A stretch of DNA of 17,874 bases from Aureococcus anophagefferens (lineage: Eukaryota > Sar > Pelagophyceae > Pelagomonadales > Pelagomonadaceae): the NCBI RefSeq assembly GCF_000186865.1, contig NW_008705617.1, positions 11,704 through 29,577 of the forward strand, read 5' to 3'. This document shows positions 2,700-14,615 of the stretch, in pieces. The position numbers were made by a program, and so were the translations under genes. The notes beneath the pieces were generated by a model. That model was given only the letters and a program-made list of their open reading frames with translations, was not told the DNA's origin and made no database searches. Positions within the stretch are counted from its first letter, which is position 1; each line of letters starts with the position of its first letter.

Positions 2700-5600
2700 C
2701 TAGCTAGTCATTCGCATGGGACTGCAAGCTTTGCTATGCACAATAGGCAAAGCGAGTTCATCAGACATGGTCTTTGCAAGACAAGCGCCAACTTCAACTG
2801 TGCATTGTCGGGAACGAAGCCTAGCGATGACATGCGAAAGAACAGGATCTGGTGCGAAGAGCAGTTCGGTGTATTGGACTTGAAATCCAGTCAGATAGAT
2901 TGGGGGAGCGTGGAGCATAGAGAGGGGGAGAACAACAAAAGTTGGAATGGACATCAGCACATGTTTGGCTACCGACTTTGAGCAGCTTGACACACAGGAC
3001 TGATAACCATTAGGCTTTGAGACGTTTCTGGTCGGATACATGGTCAGTGAGTTTGGGAGGTAGTGGCCATCAGACTGGCTTGTTGAAGGCGAGGATAGAT
3101 CATGCACAATCAAGTCTACTACATCGCGAGCGTCATGAAGTACCATGTCCCCAAAACACGAAAGCTCCATCGAATGGCGCAAAAAGTTGCGCTCGAAAGC
3201 ACGGCTGCCAACACGAGTACCATCGGAGTGTGCAAAGCAATTAGCAGCATTGGTCGTAGAGAGTACACGAGAGATAGCAACATCAGAGATACATTCCCAG
3301 GGCAGAACTTGCGCACGCTTAGAGCAGACAAGGGTGGCGATTGTTTCCCTGTCTGATGCTAGTGCGGTCGAGAAAAAATTACATGGAAGGGAAACTATGC
3401 TGGATATTCGTTTGAGAATGGAACGACGATGAACAACCCCATTTCGTTCCGCAACAACACGTCTCGCTCCAGTAAACGCGCCAATCAGGGATGCACTAGC
3501 CACCTCTAGCCCACGATCAGTTCGACCAAATGCAAGCGTATGACGCCAGCCCATGCGGGGGGCATATACGATAAGCGCACCTGCAGCATGGATAGCGTAG
3601 GCAGTCGGTAACCAGCGTGGATCTGGGGTTTCAGAATGCATACTGCGGAGTCGCCTCATAGTCGCGGTGAGCTCTCGAAGAGCATTGCGATTGCGATTTT
3701 TCACTTGATTGAGAGTCAGTTTGCCACGGCGATGACGAACGACGTCTGCTCGCACTCTCGCAATAGACCGCCAGCATGCAGACGCATCACACGCAGTGGG
3801 TGCACAACGTGGCCAATGTGCGGTTCTATTAGTAACAGTTACATGATTGTGTCCGAGCGTTCGTTGACTGCAATAAGACTTCTTATGCTGGACAAATTCA
3901 ACTTGAACATCGCTCTCGAAATGTACAAAAACATCGAAAAGTATGACATTTTCGTCAATCATGGCCTTATCTGCAACCGCAGCAAGGAAACGGAGCAAGC
4001 GTTCTAGAATCTTGCGAAGCTGCGATCGTGTGGCAGCATCGGCGACAGTAGCCAATGGTATGAACGGACCATCGACAAGAAGCTTCAGCAGCAGCTCTCT
4101 TGCCTCCCACCAGTGCGCGATTGCACCCAAAGGATCATCGCAGACGTGCCGCAACTCGGCGATGTTGAGATAGGTTTCAAGGAGAAGCAGGGGCTCATTG
4201 ATGACCGCTGCGATTTCAAGGGCATGGCGGGAAGCTAAAGCCGCATCTTCAATTGTTGCACGCCCACCTTCAGCCATCAATTCAGATTGAGGCGCGGTCA
4301 TCGTTGTTTCGAGAAACATCCTGTCAAGGCTTAAAGTAGCAAAGGCAGATGCGGCTCGAGCAATGCCAAACGAATCATTTATTGCCTTGAAGCACTCCAA
4401 TGCATGCCGATACCAACGCAAGGCATCATTACGCATATCGGCTGCATTTCCATAAGCGCGGTAGTGTCGGGATCGTGATCGTCTCGACATCTCATCCGTT
4501 ACGCTTAAAGGTTCACGACTTTGATCGTGTCCGGTAGATTGAATAGTATCACAACTATGCTGCTTATAAAACCGGCAATCAAGTGCGCAATCTTGGCGAG
4601 TGGGGTCATGACTGTATTCATCGAGACACAAGGGAAAGGCTCGTGTTTCAGCATCCCTTGCAAAGGCTACCTGCGCACGACCACGAAGCTCATATAAAGC
4701 ACCAAGTTCGCCAAGACCTCGCACAGAACCCACACGAGAGACAGCCGCCTCAGCCGCCGCAACCGTAGGCACAAGCCTCTTCAATGCTCTCCTTGGACGC
4801 CTCTCTAGTAAGGCTACCTCTGCAGCTAGTTGGCCGAGGTCAACATCGTTATCACAAAATGCCACGAGGCGACCTTTCAGGGGTGAATCCCACAAAGGTT
4901 GGTATTCACCACGGCACAGGTCCTCCAGGGGATTCCATAGAGATCGAGCTAAGGATCCGCTCGAAGCATGTTGTCGAATGCGTTCGACCCTACGCAAGGC
5001 AAGCTGTGCGCTCATCGTGTCATCACACAGCACATGAGCTTCAATGAGATATGACAAAAACGCAATGCGACGTCGATGGGATGTTGGACATACAGCTAGA
5101 GCACGTTCTAAACAAAACGTGGCTAGAGAAGGTTCGCACTGCTCTACAGCAATGTGTGCTACGGATAAAGCAGCCTGTTGTGATGCTAACTCGAGCTCGT
5201 AAATTGAAGTTGAAGTCGCACACATTTTCTGACGCCCTGACAGATCCGCTTCTAAATTTTGCAACGTCAAGTGCGCATAGGTGAGATCACTAGATTTTGC
5301 GAAGTGAGTCACGAGTAGTTCTGCTACAAAAAAGACCTCATAGACATCAGCAATAATTATTGAGTCTAGCACCTGAATAAGACCCAGCCTCTTGTTATCC
5401 TGCAAACGCGTTTGATGTGCTAGTGCTCGAATCCTGCGCCCTTCGAAACGTTCGCGCAAGTCGCCCAAAACATGATTGCAGTGAGTAACTCCGGTTTCAC
5501 GATCTCCTTGACGCGTTGACACAATGCATAATTCGCGTTGCAACTTGCGTCGCTCATTCGAGTCATCACGGAGCCTCAAAATTGCCACACATACATCAAG

Positions 5601-7917
5601 AACCAAAACTGCATACGCATGTTTTGCACGTCGCTCGAGCGCACGAGCAAGCGCTCGCAAGGCTGTGTAACCCATGGAGCATGCAAGAACTGAATAGGCA
5701 GTAGGGGCAAAGTTGTGTTGCTGGGACGATGCAGGATCCAATGGACCTTCATAACGATGGGCATGGAAAGGCAAATCAACCTACATGTAGACAACCCGTT
5801 TGGCGGTCATAACAAGATTGGTCTCATGAAGAGCGCATACAGGACTCCGGAGAGAGAAACAGGGATGGTAGTGGTGTGTTGCTCCAACACGCAGGTTGCC
5901 TCGAAGAGGAGCATCTCGGCAATGCGAAGTTCTTGTGTCGCACCGTGTAGCGCCTTCCGACCGCGCCACAATCTGCGGCGCAATCTAAGATTATTGCCAA
6001 GTGCTAGCGTAGAAGCTTCGTAGCGGTCAATTATCGTGGCTTTCTCATCACGGACGCGTTCGACGCCACGAAGGTAGCCAATGCCCAGGGCAAGAGCGGC
6101 TTTGGCACGAGCGAGACTTGACGGCGGTAATGCCAGAACTAGGGCAATAAGCCGTCCTTCGACACGGCCTGATGCTCGCGATGACCACTTATTTTCCAGC
6201 GCTGACTCGAGAGCCGCTCCGGACTCACACGCAATAGCATCCTTGTCACGAAATTCTTTAGAACTCGCCACTTCCCAAAAGACTCTCGACGTTGATGCTT
6301 CGCGCCACATAACTGTAGATATTCTTGGTTCGGGTGATTCGCCTGGTACTAGTTTTTCTACAGTTAACGGTGAGTAGCCCATGGACTCTAGACGTAAATC
6401 AGCCAGGACGAGAGCTTCCAGGCCATCAGCATCCAGAATACGATAGCTTAAACGTAAAGAATGAACTACATCAAGCGCGGCCGCAATACTCGATCGAGGT
6501 AGCGGTGGGAGAGCCCCACACCAGCACCGACCACGAAAGGATGGTGGTGCGCACCCGTCGCGTATTTGCTCACATACGGATCTTCGTGTTGGGCGTGAGT
6601 GTACCTGATACTATGAGGGTGAGAAAATACGAATCCTCGCATTCTGAAAAGGTACCTTCGTACGAAGACACGTCTAGACACTGGATTGGTTTTGACCAAG
6701 GCTAGATGAGCCACAGCTTCGTCAACCATGAGCTTGCTCTTAGCCCGAAGAAAGGCATCGTCAATGTCACCTAGAAGAGCAGCTGTTCCATGGCGGAATG
6801 CAGCTAAATCGCGAGCGTCGAGTGGATGGGGAGGCGCAGATAACCTATGAGGGAGGTCAAGTTGTTTTTTTGTGTTCGTCGCGTGGAGCAGCTCCGCCGC
6901 ACACAACTCATCGCAGCGCTGCGCGAGACGACACACAAGTCGTGAAAGACGCCCACAGCACTGGTGGCAGCGGAGATCATCGTCGAGCGTTGATGCACTG
7001 GGTCCGCCAAAGGAGACAATTTTCAGTGCCTTTGGAGTGACACTGGCAGCAGTTTCGAGGCTGTGCAATAATGTCTTCACGTACGTGACGCAATTGTGCC
7101 AACTTCCATTGCAGTACGCCATCTCTGCAGCACGCAATGACCTTTCCAACGCTGCCTCCTCACTTGGTGGCCGCTCACGTTCGTGCATATTCTCGAATCG
7201 CTCTGGAGATGGTCGTGCAACAACAGCAGACGTATGGGAAACCTTGTAGCACAAATTTTGCAGCCATGCAACCGTCCCGCGTGCTGATTCTGGCGCATGG
7301 GGTGATGCAAAAGGTATCGAATCACGTTTACGAAGATCTTGACGTCGCATACTGAATCCTGTGGATATTTCTGGTGGTACGTGTGGTGTTATCCGGACGT
7401 CCGGGTCAACACCAAGAGAGGATTTAGTCCAAATGGCACAGGCTTCCCGATCAGTATCGCGTTGAACATCGCTAGCTCCTATTTGCCGTGGTCGCTGGAA
7501 TGTTGCATATGCTGAGAATAGTGTTGGTTGCCGTGGTAGAGAATGCATACTATGCACATCACAGAAAACCATGGCGTCTTTTATTGCATATCCATCGAGA
7601 TATTCGAGCAGTGATTCCACTGGTGCACCACTTGGGTCTATGATAACCACCTGCTTATCATCTGCCAGTGATGCGATGCTAGGCGCGGCAGCTGTGGCAT
7701 AATCTTCAGCTTCTTCATTCAACGCTAGGGCTTTAGGTGTTTTCGCCCCGAGTGACAGCTCCAAGTCCCAGTCTTCATTGGTTCCAGAGGTCGAACGGAC
7801 GGTAGATTCACAGGGTCGCAGGGACTGCAAGGTCGTCCCCGACAGAGACGCAACCCCAGAATCAGATAGGAAATCACTGTCCCAGCAAGCTGAGGAAAGT
7901 TGATGGTTCCCGGCCAT
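2700..7917 (-). CDS. Large TPR-like helical repeat protein with separase/CHAT-like C-terminal segment
   Basis: Proposed exons are 7917-6664, 6604-5837 and 5780-2700. All joins are phase 0 and give about 1700 residues. The ATG at 7917 is chosen because the open frame upstream has only a GTG. Residues 1-250 are low-complexity and Ser/Thr-rich. The middle is dominated by amphipathic helices resembling TPR units (for example the segment around NDALRWYRHALECFKAINDS in exon 3). Near residue 1500 comes a hydrophobic strand and the motif VLPWECISDVAISRV, which has the form of the L-P-W-E signature at the start of the protease fold in separase (peptidase C50) and related CHAT domains. Length and order, helical repeats then this motif, fit separase. 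However, only about 198 residues follow, and neither the H-G-x-G nor the C-S-S catalytic motif is in this frame. It may be an inactive relative, lack its last exon(s), be damaged at the 3' end, or be another TPR protein with an inactive CHAT-like domain. It is transcribed away from the transposon. Confidence 0.6.
5781..5836 (-). other. Predicted intron 2 of the TPR/separase-like gene (about 56 nt)
   Basis: The acceptor ACATGTAG|G is clear, because the TAG closes the downstream frame exactly there. The donor is uncertain. GC at 5836 gives 56 nt and correct phase, and GT (GTCCTG) nine bases upstream, giving 65 nt, also keeps phase. The best-looking GT (GTATGC at 5840) gives the wrong phase. Confidence 0.45.
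6605..6663 (-). other. Predicted intron 1 of the TPR/separase-like gene (59 nt)
   Basis: Minus strand GTACGA...TATCAG followed by G, phase 0. A frame change is required here: the first frame continues to a stop at about 6466 with poor coding character, while the next frame is open from just after a TAG at about 6611 and runs into a good helical sequence (ALDVVHSLRLSYRILDADGL). The exact donor is uncertain; an alternative GTACCT lies 8 nt further on but gives the wrong phase with this acceptor. Confidence 0.5.
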
Positions 7918-8413
7918 TAAGGTCAGAATTTTCCCCACGGCGAGGCTACCTAAAACCAGGATCGGACAACATCACCGAGGTTCCGCCCACCACCCGCCGC
8001 CGAAAATCGACCTTATGAAAACGAAAGCCTTCGACCCGAGAAATTTCTTAGCTGCATAGCATGCAAGCTTGCGTACAGCTGTAGCCAACTGACGGTGAAT
8101 ATTGACGGTGCACCGCGGGTCCGCCAGGACTCGTAAGGTAGTCCGCGGGGGCTGCTAGGGTCATGCGCCGGGGTGCCCGGCTCGGCATCGAGGCCATGGC
8201 GTCGGCCATCATCATGGGGTCTGAGGGCGTCTGTCCACCGCCTCGTTTGTCATGTAGAGCCTAGCCTAGCGCGTCACGGTGTACCGGGACGGCCAGAGGT
8301 GGTATGGTTGGAAACCTGGCCTGTCGAACCCCCACTCGGCAGTTAGCTCTGACTGGGTGGACTCTGAGGACTCCAGTTTCCGGTAGCTGGGACCAAAATA
8401 TGGTGGTAATTTG
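7918..8413. other. Intergenic region left of the transposon
   Basis: Presumed 5' region of the minus-strand gene at 2700-7917, and left half of the original intergenic space between it and the ARM-repeat gene. It contains a TGACGGTG word repeated at 8090-8097 and 8103-8110. No convincing coding frame was seen. The last five bases, ATTTG, are the left copy of the target duplication. Confidence 0.6.
8409..8413. repeat. Target site duplication, left copy
   Basis: ATTTG directly abuts the left terminal repeat and is repeated exactly at 14611-14615 after the right terminus. The match stops at five bases on both sides. Confidence 0.85.
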
Positions 8414-8432
8414 CACTTACTAATCGACGGAC
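8414..8432 (+). repeat. Left terminal inverted repeat of the transposon
   Basis: CACTTACTAATCGACGGAC. It matches the reverse complement of 14592-14610 at 16 of 19 bases, with the outer seven bases identical. Similarity fades beyond base 19. Confidence 0.85.
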
Positions 8433-8549
8433 CAAGTTGCAGTGAAATGTATCGCTCGGCTGAAACGTCGTCCATACACAGAACGAACCATGAATTATCC
8501 GAGAATCCGACAAAAGATCCCCGTGGCCGTTCATAATAATTTGACAGCT

Positions 8550-10167
8550 ATGTCGGACGCCGAGGCGCCGGATATGGGCGGTAAACTACAGGTTTATCGT
8601 CTAGAGAAGCGCAAGGGAGAAGTGGATGATGCCAATATCATCGCGGGCAAGCGCGTCCGTCCACAGGGTCGCGCGCCTATCGTATCGGCTGCCCCACGGA
8701 CAGTTGCCCCGCGGCGCGTCTCGCCAAAAAAGGCAGCGCCTTCTCCGGACGTACCCGGCCCAGATGATGATGGTGTGTCTCGGCACATGCTTCGGGCTGA
8801 TCTACAGGCTGGAGACCTAGTCTTGGTCAAGGGCTGCGACTTCGCCGCTCTTGCTAAAGCGGGAGTTGCTCCGGATGCGGTTTGCACAGCTGAAGTGCTG
8901 TCTTCTACGGCTGCTGGTGCCAGGTGTAAAGTAGCTGGTGTTTCTGACATGCTTCTTCTGCCTCCAGGACACCAAGCAGCTTCGCTTTGCGTGCGACCTG
9001 AACGTGTCAGACGGTTCGTTTTTGTGTCAAATTAAATGGCGTCATGTTTTTTGTAGGCATGACAAGATTGTTGTCGGGCAGTGGGTGAGAGAGCGAGTCT
9101 CTGCTTTTGATTCTAACTCAGGTCAGAGATGGTCCCATGTCAACTATGGTGCTCTCGCAGACAAAGCCACTATTCTATGCTATATCTGTGCAGTGCATGA
9201 GCACATCTCATATTTGTATACACCTGATGATGGTGAGGCTTTGAAGATAACAAATGAAAATGTGAGGAGGAGAAGAGTCAGCTCCATTTGTGAAGTGAAG
9301 GTGTCGAAGTCTGAGCGACGGCTGAGCACCGAGACGAAGAACTCTGTACCAAGGCAGCCACCGCCTGCATCACTCGCTGAAGTGCCATGGTTGAATCCTT
9401 TGGCCAGGGACAAAGGCAATGTGCTCCAGTGCATCCAGAGTATTCTAAGGAGCCGTGGCAAGCGAGAAAAGCCCACGGATTCACGCGACATACACATGTC
9501 CTTCTCATCTTTTGAAGGTATTACCCGCAGTGAGTATGTGGGTACGCTGAGTGCCATTCGCGTCTGCTACCCGCTTCGGGAGAGCTTTGATGCCGAGTAC
9601 ATGCATGTGTATGGATCCTGTCCCGTGGAGCACATGCAAATCTGCAGTTGGCGCACAAAGGACGAGCTGGAAAGGCTCGGCAACTGGTTTGGTCAACCGA
9701 ATTTCAACATGCACAGACGTGGGAACCGTCCAAAGCTATGTGTTCCAATGCCAGTGATGTTTGATGAGATGAATGTGGTGCATCCAAAGTACTCCAGAAC
9801 TCGAATTGTGTTGAAATACAACATCACTACGTTTATGGCAAAGGTTACGGTGGCATACCAGCGAGTTGGACCGGTTGCACAAGGTACTGCACATCACTTT
9901 CTACCCGGAGGTGACTGCGCCCCACCAGCTATGCCAGTCCCAACTCAGCCATCTGAGCCTGTGCAATGCGGAGAAGAAGAGTACACTGATGCTGTTCTCC
10001 AGGGCGAGCAAATTGAGATTGACTCTGGCACGTACAAGATCATCGAGGTCGGCCCCACCTGCAAAGTGACTCTCGTCGCTGGCAGCGGCACGCAGTCTAT
10101 CCTCATCCCGCGCGCAGACGCCGTGAGGCGCCTCGCCTTGTTCCTCGGCCTAGCCCCTCCCCAGTAA
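8550..10167 (+). CDS. Transposon companion protein with Tudor/SH3-like modules, two exons
   Basis: Exons 8550-9013 and 9057-10167 give 524 residues. The ATG at 8550 has a purine at -3. In-frame ATGs at 8442 and 8490 would add an unremarkable leader close to the terminal repeat. Residues 1-85 are basic and proline-rich and look disordered. Residues 86-155 (LQAGDLVLVKGCDF ... CVRPERVRR) and about 157-228 (VVGQWVRERV ... NENVRRRRV) each have the strand pattern of a small beta-barrel, as in Tudor or BAH-like chromatin readers. Residues 260-425 form a separate conserved-looking domain rich in aromatic and Cys residues (e.g. YGSCPVEHMQICSW). Residues 464-515 again look like a small barrel. I do not recognise the family. 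Convergence with the transposase inside shared terminal repeats suggests an accessory factor for transposition or target choice. That role is inferred, as are the domain calls. Confidence 0.75.
9014..9056 (+). other. Predicted 43-nt intron in the transposon companion gene
   Basis: It starts GTTCGT and ends TTTTTTGTAG followed by G. The upstream frame stops at 9033-9035 inside it. Splicing restores an Arg codon (CG|G) and continues into the long frame to 10167. Length and AG|G acceptor match host introns in the window, so the element's gene is spliced by the same rules. Confidence 0.7.
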
Positions 10168-10216
10168 CAGCCTTGCTATTCTCCGAAGTCCACGATGGAG
10201 CTGATGGCAGCACGAT

Positions 10217-10274
10217 GAGCTACTCGTAGAAGTAGCTCAAAAATAATAATTAGACGGAGATAAAGACATCTCCG
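10217..10274. repeat. Two adjacent hairpins after the companion gene stop
   Basis: GAGCTACT (10217-10224) pairs with AGTAGCTC (10231-10238) across a 6-base loop. CGGAGAT (10255-10261) pairs with ATCTCCG (10268-10274) across another 6-base loop. They flank an A/T-rich stretch about 50-110 nt after the stop codon at 10167, so they would lie in the 3' untranslated region of the plus-strand transcript. Confidence 0.6.
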
Positions 10275-10512
10275 AGCAGAGCTCCTTCGCGCGCGCGCAC
10301 CAGAACTCGTAGTTTTGTAAGCCGTCGCGATTAGGCGGAGAAAGTCGCACTCGAAGTTGCCGCGGAGCTGCGGGACGTGCTCGCGAGTGTCGTGCATGCC
10401 AGATTCGTGCGCTCCCAGCGTAAAACTTGCACCACTCGTAGCGGCGGTCGCGGCGGGGTAGTGCGTGCACTCAGGTTATATGGACATGCGCATGGGCGGA
10501 GATCGATGCAGG

Positions 10513-10554
10513 GGACGGGGCTGCCCGTCCATGCTCTCCTTAACTCGGGAGAGC
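10513..10554. repeat. Pair of short perfect hairpins in the central spacer
   Basis: GGACGGG (10513-10519) with CCCGTCC (10524-10530), loop 4. GCTCTCC (10533-10539) with GGAGAGC (10548-10554), loop 8. They are adjacent and each has a seven-base perfect stem. The second is followed by TTCGAATAC, which resembles a tRNA T-loop, but no tRNA cloverleaf fits. Confidence 0.5.
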
Positions 10555-10611
10555 TAATTCGAATACACGATTGCTAATTAACTTAGCCTACTGAGTTTAT
10601 TTAGTTGGCCG

Positions 10612-10794
10612 ACCACCAAAAAGCCACAGGGATAAATCGGGAAACTAGCGGACGGCCACCCCCTCACCCCCCTCCGCGGGCGTACCCTCGGCAACAAAAG
10701 CCAGCATATGCATGCTAAATTCCCACGGCGTTGCGACTTCTAGCTTAGCACCAGTGGCAACTCGAATGTAGAAAACCACCAAAAAGCCACAGGG
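10612..10794. repeat. 20-bp direct repeat in the central spacer
   Basis: ACCACCAAAAAGCCACAGGG is found exactly at 10612-10631 and 10775-10794. Similarity continues imperfectly for about another dozen bases, with AATCGG shared. Related shorter words (CCTGTGG near 10823, CCCACAG near 10864) lie to the right. These may be protein-binding repeats or remnants of a local duplication. Confidence 0.8.
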
Positions 10795-10973
10795 TCGAAT
10801 CGGAGAAAAAGCTTATGACCATCCTGTGGTTCCTCGAGCGAGGCGTATCGCTGGCCAAAAAGACCCACAGCTTGCACTTGCCTCGCATCCAAAAGTTAAA
10901 ACTAGCACCTCAGGCTACCACCCAGGTCGGTAGACGAGCACATAGTTAACACGCGCAGCCGGCGGGACGTGCC

Positions 10974-13900
10974 TCAGGAGTCGCAGTCCATACACCGCAG
11001 CCCCTCGTCCGCCGACACACAAGCCAAGCCGGAGAAAGGCCCTCGTGGGCGCTGGCTAGGCGTCTTTGCTCCGCGCCAAGTCCAGTCTGCAACCTCGGCA
11101 TCGAGGTTGTCACGCTCATCCATGTCGAGGTCACCATCCTCATCTTCAAAATCGCTGTCACTCTCGTCTGCAGGCTCGAAGTCTGGGTCATCCACCGGAA
11201 GCACATCATCAGGAAACGCTTGCAGGAGAAACGTAGGCTGGTCCACAGCCCGAGCCGAGTTTGCAGGACTGAAGAACTTCTGCAAATGCCCATGGAACCA
11301 CCCATATCGCCGGAAGCAGATTTCAAACAGGCTCACCATTCTTGGACTCTGCTGCTGCACACCTCGCTTTGCACCCTCCACCTGCATCCCTCCGCCCTTC
11401 GATGTCTTATTATGATACAAATTTTTCAGCAATTTGACAAAGCCCTCCACTGCTTGCTGTTCCCATAGCTTGAGAAATATCCCGCGCTGCATGAACTCCA
11501 GGGCGTGTCCTGAGCCAACTATATGTGCATAGTTGCCTATGAACTCTCGGTTCCATAGTGATATTCCATGATCATAATACATGTGACTCAGTCTGTAGAT
11601 GAGTTCCTCATCGAACTCACCCACTTTATCGAGCTCGTCCATGAGCTGAATGTAGCATCTCATCAGCTCCTTCACCTGCTGGTTCCTGCTTCCTTGGGTG
11701 ACACAAATGTCTATCACTGCTTCTCCCACTCTTCTGATGACCTTTGCTCCCAGATACACCTCCATGCTTACTCTGCCCACCCCTGCTCCGGCCTTCAGAA
11801 ACGGCACCTCCCATTGCTGCGAGGCTTGAAATTTATGCATGCCTCGGGAATTGATGATGGACACAGCCTGCTCCACAGTTTGCTTCCTTGCTGCCTGTGT
11901 TGCCAAATCTGGTCTGTGAGCCTCACTGTACACATCATTCAAGATGAGCGTGATCAGAGCCTCCTGCGTATTCTTTTTTAAATGAAGCAAACATGGCACC
12001 ATGTCCTCTACCAATATTACCAGTGCATCATCATTGCCCTTGCAGCACTCAAGTTTTTCTCTGAGCCTTAGAATATCGTAGCAGCACACCATTAATGGCT
12101 CTATGGCAGCAACGAGTGCTGATGCACTCATGCTTTCATAGTCTTTGACATGCAGGTCCATTGCTGTTTTTTTGAGGGCTTTGGTACGTTCCATGGCTTC
12201 ATTGACACCTGTAGGTTGAAATCCAATATGAAATGTTCGCCCCTGGTCCTTGGGAAGAGCTGATACATATTTATTTCTTAAAGCAGCCTCCACTTCCTGC
12301 AGTAATTGGGGTTTATCGAGAAACTCAAGTACTCCCAGCTCCTCGTAATCATCTTCATCCAGCTCCTCGTAACCCAGGACCTGTGCTTTTATGAAAGAAG
12401 GGACATTTCCAACCAGACTCTTCTCCAACAAGGCCAGCTGCGATTTGAGGCGGGAGAGGAGGTCCTGCGTAAGCATAGGCTCACAAAAGCACCTGTCAAA
12501 ATTGTTCGAGGTGCATCTGTGGCATCTTTCTTGACCAATTTTGGGAACATGCAGGTTGTCATCATGCACAGGACAGAGGTGGCAGGGATTTTTGCTGTTC
12601 TTTGCAGCTCCACCTCTACACTTAACTTTTTTTATTCCATTTTCCTCCTCGACAGTACCGCTGGTTTTCCATGTAGAAGAGAGGTCCTTAGCCGATTTTA
12701 TCATCAGGTAAAACTTTCTCCCAAGCCGCTTATGATTGAAGTAACCACCCCTCTTGTCCAACTCCCTCTTGAACCTGTAGACCATGTTCAATGCAGGAAA
12801 CGCATGCCATAATAAGCCAGTCTCTTTATGCATAATGGCCCCAGATGGCAGCAGATTACCTGTGCTCTGGAATTTTCTGTTTAATAACCCATCAATAGCA
12901 TCCCTGGCAGGTGCCCCTGGTAGCTGTACGGCAGCAAAAGTGACTGACTGATGAGCGGTCACTTGGCCATTATCGCCGGTTCCTTTAACCTCCACCGCAT
13001 CAGCTGGACTGTGTCCCCTGTCATTCAGGCCATTGTCTTGAAGGTAAATTTCGAGACCATTCTGAAAATCTCCGAGAGCAGCGTAATCACCATCATGAAT
13101 CTTTATTCCCATATCATTAGCTGGAATTTTAAAATCCAGCTTAAACATAGCAGACATGAAAGCGGTAGCTTCCTTGATTTTTACTCTCAATTTGACATGA
13201 TGAGGGATGATCCAATTGCCTCTTAGCTTCCTGGGCATGCGCCGCCCGAAATCCGACACGAACCACTGGTCTGTCAGTTTCACCGTAATGTCATGCATGT
13301 TCTGGATGTCACCGATCGAAAGTTTGGCCCTGGTGTCCAACTGGCACACCCATTTCCAGGGCTGTCCAATCTGGGCACTAAACTGGGTTAAGACTTGAAC
13401 TGTAATGGTGGCCCATAAACCACCAAAACGGTGCTCTGCAGAATACAAATTTTGGACCATGTAGATCATCATGGTGTGCCACGCGTCCAGGGTCTGATCT
13501 CTCCCTGTAATGGGACACATTTTACTCTTCTTCAGCTCATGGATGAGCAGCACAGTTCTCTGGCAGACCATCCACTGGTCGCTCCCGAGCTCCTCCGGTT
13601 GCTTCCATGTCTCACGCCCTAATGCCCTCATGATCATATTTTTTTCACTGTTCGATAAGCCAGCTTCAAAGGTGTCTGAAGGAAGTCTTTTTCTTCTCTT
13701 AGAGATGGGCCCCATTAAATCCTGGTCACTCACTTGGCACCCCGCGTCCATAGTTTGAACCGGTCCGGCAGTTGCTGCGGCAGTTGGCCGTCGAAGTAAC
13801 TTTTTCAGCGCGCGCCTCAGTGGCAGAGAATCTTCCTTGCACACCTTTGCCCCATCCTTGCTGTGGTGCGCCCGAACCTTCTCCACGGTCGCGTCGTCCA

Positions 13901-14084
13901 TGTGCGGCACCAGCAAGTCCCACATCTCCTTGTCGACCGTTAGCGTCTGGAACTTGACGAAGCCGCCGGTAAGCTTCTTCTCCTTCCGAGGCGCCTCAGG
14001 GGCTGTGCGGTTGTCCATGTGTCCGAAAGCAGCCCTCCGGCCCGGGTCATACGGGACGCCCGCTGCCAGCGGTTGCGTTTCCAT
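10974..14084 (-). CDS. Large DDE-type transposase candidate, intact, 1036 residues
   Basis: One uninterrupted frame from an ATG at 14084 in good context to a TAG, with no intron needed. Residues 1-140 are basic and probably DNA-binding or disordered. A first acidic-residue motif occurs in VKGTGDNGQV (Asp371) followed by a hydrophobic strand (SVTFAAVQL). A second candidate is Asp467 in SAKDLSSTW. After it comes a Cys/His-rich insert (C501-x2-C504, H507, H512, C521-x2-C524, C532, C534). Near the C-terminus, NYAHIVGSGHALEF (H854, H860) is followed 20 residues after H860 by Glu880 in WEQQAVEGFVKLLKN, then a basic TSKGGG stretch. This D-D-C2-H2-E order is shared by several RNase H-like eukaryotic transposases, including RAG1/Transib and CACTA groups. 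Residues 956-1000 form an acidic tail. Expected function: nuclear cut-and-paste transposition of the element at 8414-14610. The catalytic assignments are by pattern only, and the family name is unknown to me. Confidence 0.82.
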   Translation of the reverse strand: METQPLAAGVPYDPGRRAAFGHMDNRTAPEAPRKEKKLTGGFVKFQTLTVDKEMWDLLVPHMDDATVEKVRAHHSKDGAKVCKEDSLPLRRALKKLLRRPTAAATAGPVQTMDAGCQVSDQDLMGPISKRRKRLPSDTFEAGLSNSEKNMIMRALGRETWKQPEELGSDQWMVCQRTVLLIHELKKSKMCPITGRDQTLDAWHTMMIYMVQNLYSAEHRFGGLWATITVQVLTQFSAQIGQPWKWVCQLDTRAKLSIGDIQNMHDITVKLTDQWFVSDFGRRMPRKLRGNWIIPHHVKLRVKIKEATAFMSAMFKLDFKIPANDMGIKIHDGDYAALGDFQNGLEIYLQDNGLNDRGHSPADAVEVKGTGDNGQVTAHQSVTFAAVQLPGAPARDAIDGLLNRKFQSTGNLLPSGAIMHKETGLLWHAFPALNMVYRFKRELDKRGGYFNHKRLGRKFYLMIKSAKDLSSTWKTSGTVEEENGIKKVKCRGGAAKNSKNPCHLCPVHDDNLHVPKIGQERCHRCTSNNFDRCFCEPMLTQDLLSRLKSQLALLEKSLVGNVPSFIKAQVLGYEELDEDDYEELGVLEFLDKPQLLQEVEAALRNKYVSALPKDQGRTFHIGFQPTGVNEAMERTKALKKTAMDLHVKDYESMSASALVAAIEPLMVCCYDILRLREKLECCKGNDDALVILVEDMVPCLLHLKKNTQEALITLILNDVYSEAHRPDLATQAARKQTVEQAVSIINSRGMHKFQASQQWEVPFLKAGAGVGRVSMEVYLGAKVIRRVGEAVIDICVTQGSRNQQVKELMRCYIQLMDELDKVGEFDEELIYRLSHMYYDHGISLWNREFIGNYAHIVGSGHALEFMQRGIFLKLWEQQAVEGFVKLLKNLYHNKTSKGGGMQVEGAKRGVQQQSPRMVSLFEICFRRYGWFHGHLQKFFSPANSARAVDQPTFLLQAFPDDVLPVDDPDFEPADESDSDFEDEDGDLDMDERDNLDAEVADWTWRGAKTPSQRPRGPFSGLACVSADEGLRCMDCDS

Positions 14085-14248
14085 GGCAGCGGCTGGAGCG
14101 ATAGAGCTAGCACGCTAAGCTTCTGTCCGACCAATGTGATCAGCCGATTGGATTCTTGGAAAATATATCATTCGTTCTCTACATGTCTTTTGCTCGAGAC
14201 GATGTGGTTGGTCGGCGGAGCGGGGCTGCGTCTGGGGTCTGGGGCGCC

Positions 14249-14325
14249 CGAAGGTACTATGCCCGCGCGGCTGCCGGCCGGAATCGGGGCGACGAGAGAG
14301 GGGTTCGCTTGGCATAGTACCTTCG
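14249..14325. repeat. Internal inverted repeat upstream of the transposase gene
   Basis: CGAAGGTACTATGCC at 14249-14263 is perfectly inverted at 14311-14325, with a 47-base GC-rich spacer and weaker pairing outside. It lies between the right terminus and the transposase start, 285-361 bp from the end of the element. It could be a transposase-binding or promoter element, or a structured 5' leader. Confidence 0.85.
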
Positions 14326-14591
14326 AGCACCCAGAACCTCGCCGCGGGGACCGCCTCGCGCGCGCGGAGAGAGAGGGGAAAATGATCTCGGCTTCTGCGT
14401 GCTCCCGAGACGAGCGGGCTGAAGATTTGGGATGCTCGACCCCGAATTGCCATTGCGAAGTGTGCTCAGTTTCTCTCCCCCTGGCCTGGAACATGCCAAA
14501 CCCAGCATCAGAGATCGTGCGACCATCATCGACGACGTCCAACCACTTTCGAAAGTAAACTTCTAGGTTCAATAAGTTAATGTTGCGTTCC

Positions 14592-14610
14592 GGCCGACGA
14601 TTGGTAAGTG
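14592..14610 (-). repeat. Right terminal inverted repeat of the transposon
   Basis: Reverse complement reads CACTTACCAATCGTCGGCC and matches the left end at 16 of 19 bases. It is followed directly by the right ATTTG. Confidence 0.85.
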
Positions 14611-14615
14611 ATTTG
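14611..14615. repeat. Target site duplication, right copy
   Basis: ATTTG, identical to the five bases at 8409-8413. The next base differs from the left side, so the duplication is exactly 5 bp. Confidence 0.85.

Follow-up and report, generated by a model that had tools for sequence, protein, structure and literature searches.

What kind of transposon occupies positions 8414 to 14610 of the window, the 17,874-nucleotide stretch of Aureococcus anophagefferens DNA analysed here, and could its enzyme be related to RAG1, which carries out the rearrangement of antibody genes? The initial annotation had proposed a complete protist DNA transposon with 5-bp duplications and a partner gene lacking the marks of RAG2, and this description held, while the family to which the element belongs proved more difficult to decide.

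Ends and copies of the element

The exact ends and the target duplication described previously were both recovered. The element is 6,197 bp long (8414–14610) and its ends begin with CACTTAC. The features of its boundaries are as follows:

8409–8413, no strand: left target-site duplication ATTTG, identical to 14611–14615
8414–8432, plus strand: left terminal inverted repeat CACTTACTAATCGACGGAC, matching the right end in 16/19 positions
8414–8472, plus strand: 59-bp left end common to the 15 small copies
14185–14610, plus strand: 426-bp right end common to the 15 small copies
14592–14610, minus strand: right terminal inverted repeat CACTTACCAATCGTCGGCC, matching the left end in 16/19 positions
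14611–14615, no strand: right target-site duplication ATTTG, from sequence comparison

A scan across the complete window for inverted ends that match in at least 16 of 19 positions and are flanked by a 5-bp duplication gave two matches, this element and a CGT-repeat artefact, and the same scan gave none in each of eight Markov-1 resamples.

A search of the 49-Mb genome with the element ends, which the initial annotation had suggested as a check, revealed at least 19 left-end and at least 20 right-end matches. Paired ends define 16 complete elements, namely the 6,197-bp element, the one full-length copy found, and 15 copies of 474–486 bp; three left ends and four right ends remained unpaired, and for the four right ends no far end was recognised within the approximately 1.5 kb examined. 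A perfect 5-bp duplication flanks all 16 complete copies, with no other duplication length among them, and as all 16 duplication sequences are distinct and the 14-base flanks differ, inverted ends with a duplication of constant length occur at independent sites (16/16). Every small copy consists of the first 56–59 bp and about the last 426 bp of the large element, to which the right part is 89.0–98.8% identical, and among themselves the small copies show 89–100% pairwise identity; GTC is shared at the deletion junction. They derive by internal deletion from this element or a near-identical one, are built on one deletion, and thus all 15 are non-autonomous, MITE-type copies derived from an autonomous element. 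This origin proves the ends of the element and makes it likely that the small copies were moved in trans by it or by a sister copy. From these sequences the element is a real and probably recently active transposon, a reading that is weakened by the facts that movement is read from copies and that only one full-length copy was found.

Two convergent genes

The initial annotation had placed two intact convergent genes and nothing else between the ends. This stands for the larger gene, a single intact open frame, and for the remaining frames, which apart from the two partner ORFs do not exceed 179 aa, but the partner reads through without interruption only once a predicted intron of 43 bp is spliced out, giving 524 aa.

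8550–9013, plus strand: predicted partner exon 1, from the ATG at 8550, open throughout and continuing in frame into exon 2 across the predicted intron
9014–9056, plus strand: predicted GT-AG intron of 43 bp, from sequence and frame
9057–10167, plus strand: predicted partner exon 2, within ORF 8938–10167
10168–10973, no strand: 806-bp stretch separating the two convergent stop codons
10974–14084, minus strand: putative transposase of 1036 aa, single intact open frame

The partner ORF 8938–10167 had no match in Pfam, NCBIfam or the PDB, and hmmscan against Pfam found neither Kelch nor PHD nor any other domain in the two partner ORFs, in agreement with the earlier statement that the partner is unlike RAG2. 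An AlphaFold model of the partner ORF alone was unusable (pLDDT 35).

Protein-database searches with the 1036-aa protein, in each of which about 8,000 candidates were scored, returned the three relatives P0001–P0003, 92–96% identical over the aligned parts, and no homologues beyond them. Two are from A. anophagefferens and the third is 96% identical; P0002 is identical to the protein across residues 138–434. No relative was found in the viral contigs or phages searched. Pfam, NCBIfam and PDB sequence searches with the 1036-aa protein gave no significant match, and its AlphaFold model, built with three usable homologues, reached a pLDDT of 32 and was unusable, so that an RNase H fold has no support from the predicted model. 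The following patterns were nevertheless recognised:

12573–12584, minus strand: C501-H-L-C504, first C-x2-C, candidate zinc ligands, pattern also present in the distant relative C61 (CNFC)
12513–12524, minus strand: C521-H-R-C524, second C-x2-C, CRRC in C61 at similar spacing
11505–11525, minus strand: H854-x5-H860, candidate zinc ligands, matched by HDIIAGH in the alignment to C61 and conserved in P0003
11445–11447, minus strand: E880, candidate catalytic glutamate 20 residues past H860, invariant in the four-row alignment A5

E880 is the single catalytic candidate from sequence patterns and C501-x2-C504 lies upstream of it. HMYYDH (H834-x4-H839) was also considered as the His motif and was rejected because its second His is absent from P0003.

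Elsewhere in the genome the search found no further intact copy of this transposase gene, only partial relatives and the intact distant relative C61. C61 scored 40 over 92 columns of a profile of the 1036-aa protein (at most 27 in 40 shuffles), and both proteins have the order C-x2-C, H-x5-H and E, with an identical spacing of 20 residues from the His pair to E. The N-terminal halves of C61 and of a further relative, C15, did not score above shuffles against this profile, and C15 lacks the His pair. The relatives at C15, C63 and C68 are partial or broken. Relatives of the partner are a 42-aa remnant at C68 (95% identical) and a sequence at C72 with 24% identity, interrupted by a stop and with no transposase match beside it. 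C15 and C61 each have a candidate second ORF in convergent orientation to that of the transposase. As homology to the partner did not rise above shuffles at C15 (21.49 compared with 21.68) and none was found at C61, this common layout is positional evidence only, and the argument is further weakened because these ORFs lie in GC-rich DNA and are overlapped by long antisense frames (704 aa at C15 and 383 aa at C61). A scan for CA-ends with a duplication of at least 4 bp found none around C15, C61 and C63, and the TIR scan around C72 gave one weak candidate (13/20). C61 ends in a 37-nt inverted repeat for which a clear duplication was not found, and matches to this end in the genome were limited to its own two ends.

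Position among known transposon families

According to the available text of Kojima 2025 (PMC12730594), the CMCT clade unites EnSpm/CACTA, Mirage, Chapaev, Transib, Plavaka, ESTA and Lanisha and is marked by CA..TG ends, duplications of 2–5 bp, a C(2)C between the second Asp and the last Glu, and H(3-4)H. The element has CA..TG ends and a 5-bp duplication within this range, and its protein has a candidate C(2)C, followed by a His pair, upstream of the putative catalytic Glu. It differs in the His pair, which as H-x5-H is one residue wider than in that text, in its second C-x2-C and in the lack of a profile match. EnSpm/CACTA, with 3-bp duplications, CACTA ends and a known transposase profile, differs from the element with its 5-bp duplication, CACTT end and missing Pfam match. 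The initial annotation had offered the RAG/Transib side or an undescribed DDE superfamily; the order of C-x2-C, H-x5-H and E is loosely compatible with that of RAG1, Transib and CACTA, but no sequence method linked the protein to RAG1, Transib, CACTA or KDZ. Transib ends are of the CACWATG type, and the element, although it shares the 5-bp duplication, has CACTTAC at its ends.

On this evidence we favour, with some reservation, a complete DNA transposon at 8414–14610 that probably moves by cut-and-paste and whose 1036-residue protein is predicted to act as a DDE transposase belonging to CMCT in the broad sense (CACTA/Mirage/Chapaev/Transib/RAG1-like). The 16 distinct 5-bp duplications, the deleted copies, the intact frame, the motif order common with C61, the CA..TG ends and the candidate convergent ORFs at C15 and C61 speak for it, and the missing transposase profile match, the His spacing, E880 as the one residue of the catalytic triad with a candidate, C15 without a His pair, the N-terminal halves of C61 and C15 and the low pLDDT of 32 speak against it. 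The lineage is unplaced and possibly CMCT-like, with a partner that does not appear to be RAG2, and a few sequence marks raise the possibility of a remote kinship between the larger protein and RAG1.

It appears rather unlikely that the element represents an undescribed superfamily separate from CMCT, or a strongly diverged group such as hAT5, whose 5-bp duplications and CA-ends arose convergently. The missing family matches in Pfam and NCBIfam, the restriction of the homologues found to P0001–P0003, the His spacing and double C-x2-C departing from the pattern in the available text, and the hAT groups with 5-bp duplications cited there (PMC12730594) would fit it, but the motif order and +20 spacing are kept in C61, and no hAT dimerisation or BED domain was matched in the element's proteins in Pfam.

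That the element is a divergent Transib or RAG-like transposon of the RAG1/Transib branch, its convergent partner having replaced or preceded RAG2, we regard as unlikely. The accessible text of PMC7204232 describes 5-bp duplications as the general pattern in RAG, Transib and RAGL, and RAGL genes as convergent; the element resembles RAGL/ProtoRAG in both respects and in its CAC-starting TIR, and its first seven bases fit the protostome RAGL consensus CACTWMC. Over 17 bases of the RAGL end consensus, however, the ends match in 11/17 and 12/17 positions, which is not significant (chance 0.15 and 0.05 given the CAC start). Furthermore, hmmscan against Pfam-A found neither the RAG1 core (PF12940) nor RAG2 in its ORFs, the partner lacks Kelch and PHD matches, and PDB sequence searches returned no RAG1 or Transib chains; a PF12940 scan of the alga's own genome was without a match, but as its control was silent too, this result carries no weight.

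The same alga harbours AanRAGL, a RAG-like transposon reported to be active (Tao et al. 2022, PMC9435367), with two genes between TIRs, 5-bp duplications and CA-starting ends as in our element. AanRAGL ends, which also speak for the RAG1/Transib branch, were detected in this genome, with the published end motif at seven other places, and the genome contains non-autonomous copies of AanRAGL. Together with the two A. anophagefferens proteins matching the 1036-aa protein, this motif fits that alga as the host. The element is not AanRAGL, because the ends (CACACCCAAACCT plus CCTCAAYAYG in AanRAGL, CACTTACYAATCG here) and the gene orientation differ, the AanRAGL genes pointing in the same direction and ours converging; the AanRAGL proteins are RAG1- and RAG2-like, whereas ours have no such match. 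Introners of Aureococcus are likewise small non-autonomous repeats, DNA-transposon-like according to the available text of PMC9860276, where the family 4 example from Aureococcus sp. has an 8-bp duplication and carries both of its splice sites. As the element has a 5-bp duplication and GTAAGTG at its outer edge, this reading was dropped.

A dead or host-captured relic, now fixed and with a partner taken from the host, would agree with the one full-length copy, the broken relatives at C63, C15 and C68, the predicted splice and the stop-interrupted C72, but is highly improbable given the intact 1036-aa frame, small copies up to 98.8% identical to the element and the candidate second ORFs at C15 and C61.

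Proposed mechanism and implications

For the favoured CMCT-like transposon, the transposase would bind both CACTTAC ends and excise the element, which would then be inserted into a target cut with a 5-bp stagger; the same enzyme, or that of a sister copy, would have mobilised the deleted copies in trans. C501/C504 and H854/H860 are predicted to coordinate zinc on either side of a helical insertion, with E880 as the last catalytic residue. The convergent partner might be an accessory subunit binding DNA or the transposase. It would correspond in position to RAG2, or to TNPA of En/Spm, in other two-gene elements, but no likeness to RAG2 was detected. The more specific claim of a new, deep-branching lineage on the RAG/Transib/CACTA side, which has a convergent non-RAG2 partner and shares its alga with the RAG-like transposon of Tao et al., is doubtful.

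In summary, this locus holds a complete two-gene transposon, probably recently active, with an enzyme that fits no profile searched, and its copies of about 483 bp are a ready reporter for movement in trans. As its host is shared with the active RAG-like transposon of Tao et al. 2022, it now becomes possible to ask whether having a convergent helper gene beside the transposase is a speciality of RAG or a more widespread arrangement, and what role a helper other than RAG2 may have.

Complete element, target duplications and small copies

The element in the window is a real, complete transposon with the following features.

8414-14610, the element, 6,197 bp
8550 (ATG) to 10167, plus strand, partner gene, 524 aa once a predicted 43-bp intron is removed
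9014-9056, plus strand, predicted partner intron, 43 bp, GT..AG
10974-14084, minus strand, 1036-aa large protein (putative transposase), single frame

Of 19 places compared, 16 agree between the termini CACTTACTAATCGACGGAC and CACTTACCAATCGTCGGCC, and ATTTG flanks the element on either side as a 5-bp duplication. Scanning the whole window for such a duplication with ends matching at 16/19 places or more gave two matches, the element and a CGT-repeat artefact, and the same scan of eight Markov-1 resamples gave none, confirming the exact inverted ends and identical flanks described in the initial annotation. Read outward, both ends (8414-8420 and 14604-14610) give GTAAGTG, a sequence close to that of a strong splice donor, and an insertion could provide flanking host transcripts with a splice donor.

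Using the left (87 bp) and right end (80 bp) as queries against the genome (49.05 Mb, 86 contigs, the window being G000:C57:11704-29577) we obtained at least 19 and at least 20 matches, respectively. Paired matches yielded 16 complete elements, namely that of the window and 15 small copies of 474–486 bp. In each of the 16 the 5-bp duplication is perfect, and no two have the same five-mer, so the duplication claimed from the window holds in every complete copy. Outside these pairs lie three left-only and four right-only matches, and no far end was recognised for the latter within the ~1.5 kb examined. The duplications lean to YYNRR (45/64 positions, one-sided binomial p = 0.0008, the preference being sought post hoc in a list already seen), a weak palindromic preference.

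Each small copy consists of the first 56–59 bp of the element joined to about its last 426 bp, the right part being 89.0–98.8% identical to the element. GTC is common to both sides of the deletion junction, whose coordinates are identical in 13 of the 15 copies and off by a few bases in the other two (L011 and L013); L023 has a small gap close to the right end. Among themselves the small copies show 89–100% pairwise identity (mean 94%, 105 pairs). Because of this common make-up and junction, the small copies most likely stem from a single internally deleted copy that spread to 15 or more sites. The right-end stretch common to the small copies contains a 22-nt inverted repeat (14242-14263/14311-14332, 91%, 47-nt loop), a possible regulatory or binding site.

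The two genes and their homologues

The genes are convergent, their stop codons lying 806 bp apart. From the proposed pair of intact convergent genes the layout and the large frame could be upheld, and the partner is open only with the predicted intron removed, the splice at 9014-9056 being read from the sequence. With Pfam (E ≤ 1) no match was obtained for the large protein or either partner ORF; the sole NCBIfam match of the large protein was at chance level, and PDB sequence searches gave chance-level matches only, with no transposase among them. The predicted partner thus appears to be without RAG2 marks, as had been suggested, with no Pfam match in its two ORFs. Structure models were unusable, both for the large protein with three usable homologues (mean pLDDT 32.3) and for the partner ORF alone (pLDDT 35.1). 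Between the genes lies a 50-nt direct repeat (10612-10661/10775-10824, 76%). Beside the element two large minus-strand frames (2700-5774, 1024 aa; 6466-7938, 490 aa) showed no Pfam match above cut-off.

Protein database searches returned three homologues of the large protein: AURANDRAFT_68607 (P0002, Aureococcus anophagefferens), 100% identical over residues 138–434, AURANDRAFT_67471 (P0001), matching block-wise, and an ENA protein (P0003) with 96% identity. No other relative was found among the ~8,000 length-restricted candidates per search that share most words, a candidate-limited search that may miss relatives, as one run overlooked P0001 and P0002. Over their first ~58 residues P0001 and P0002 clearly differ (compared with window 13674-14018), which could reflect recombination between two element copies or the use of another exon in the gene model.

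Relatives in the same genome and candidate catalytic motifs

Three further contigs encode relatives of the large protein. C63 (L035) has a 573-aa frame with 32% identity over residues 132–427, with D250, D371 and D398 among the identical acidic residues, from which no catalytic Asp pair could be picked. C15 (L036) matches in its C-terminal half (25% over residues 490–948, E 2e-11 in a small database). The C-terminal region of a 1242-aa frame on C61 (L049) matches a window/P0003/C15 profile over 92 columns with a score of 40, whereas 40 shuffles reached 27.1 at most and the reversed control 22.0. In their N-terminal halves neither C61 nor C15 aligned to the window profile above shuffles.

The window protein shows the order C501-x2-C504, C521-x2-C524, H854-x5-H860 and E880, and C61 the order C664-x2-C667, C682-x2-C685, H1068-x5-H1074 and E1094. 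In both, the Glu lies 20 residues past the second His; in RAG1, 20 residues likewise separate the second zinc His from the catalytic Glu. C15 keeps the Glu and lacks the His pair, and P0003 keeps H854/H860 and E880 and not the second His of HMYYDH.

A 517-aa frame converges on the transposase relative at C15, part of it with a 62%-identical match at C29, and a 459-aa frame on the 1242-aa frame at C61. As both lie in GC-rich DNA and are overlapped by long antisense frames (704 aa at C15, 383 aa at C61), these second frames are candidate genes. Against a window/C72 partner profile the C15 frame scored 21.49, below the shuffle maximum of 21.68, and the C61 frame gave no match above shuffles at all. 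A converging second ORF thus recurs in three elements, as a candidate in C15 and C61. Judged by sequence comparison, partner homology is established only for C72 (24% identity, E 3e-16, broken by a stop) and a C68 remnant (L037, 4647-4772, 42 residues, 95% identity) in another context, possibly left by another full-length copy that is now broken. In the C61 element (L049:2338-7790) both frames are enclosed by an inverted repeat of 37 nt (95%) whose ends are CTATAGTTTTGCCCC-like; no clear duplication was seen at its ends and no further end copies in the genome.

Placement of the element

The element may be CMCT-like (CACTA/Mirage/Chapaev/Transib/RAG1-like): it fits the motif order, ends and duplication length in the clade's description (Kojima 2025, PMC12730594), but its conserved His pair is off the spacing published there. 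As for RAG kinship, RAG-like (RAGL) transposons (PMC7204232) share with it 5-bp duplications, CAC ends and convergent genes. However, neither the large protein nor the partner ORFs match a RAG1 or RAG2 profile, and against the RAGL end consensus of 17 bases the two ends score 11 and 12 matches, a level that 15% and 5% of random CAC-starting sequences reach. Neither the suggested RAG kinship nor a new superfamily is established.

Identity with AanRAGL, the RAGL transposon of A. anophagefferens, was ruled out by differing ends and gene direction. Its end motif, CACACCCAAACCT, a spacer and CCTCAAYAYG (Tao et al. 2022, PMC9435367), occurs seven times in this genome (reversed control 0), and two sites traced to the far end (L055 on C3, L061 on C11) are non-autonomous copies, 1,043 and 1,619 bp long, whose target duplications of 5 bp read CGCTT and CGCCG. 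Together with the A. anophagefferens protein matches, these ends make it very likely that the genome is that of this alga or a close strain. A RAG1-gene search of the genome found none, its control being likewise silent. In the accessible part of the Aureococcus literature (Transib/RAG1, transposon/MITE, transposase/terminal inverted repeat, introners) no description of the element was found, and a Repbase entry is possible.

With no RAG1/RAG2 profile match, a chance-level end consensus and AanRAGL excluded, we file the element under none of RAGL, Transib and CMCT and leave its lineage unplaced. Its mode of movement is likely that of a cut-and-paste DDE element; it has probably been active recently and is likely to have mobilised its deletion derivatives in trans.
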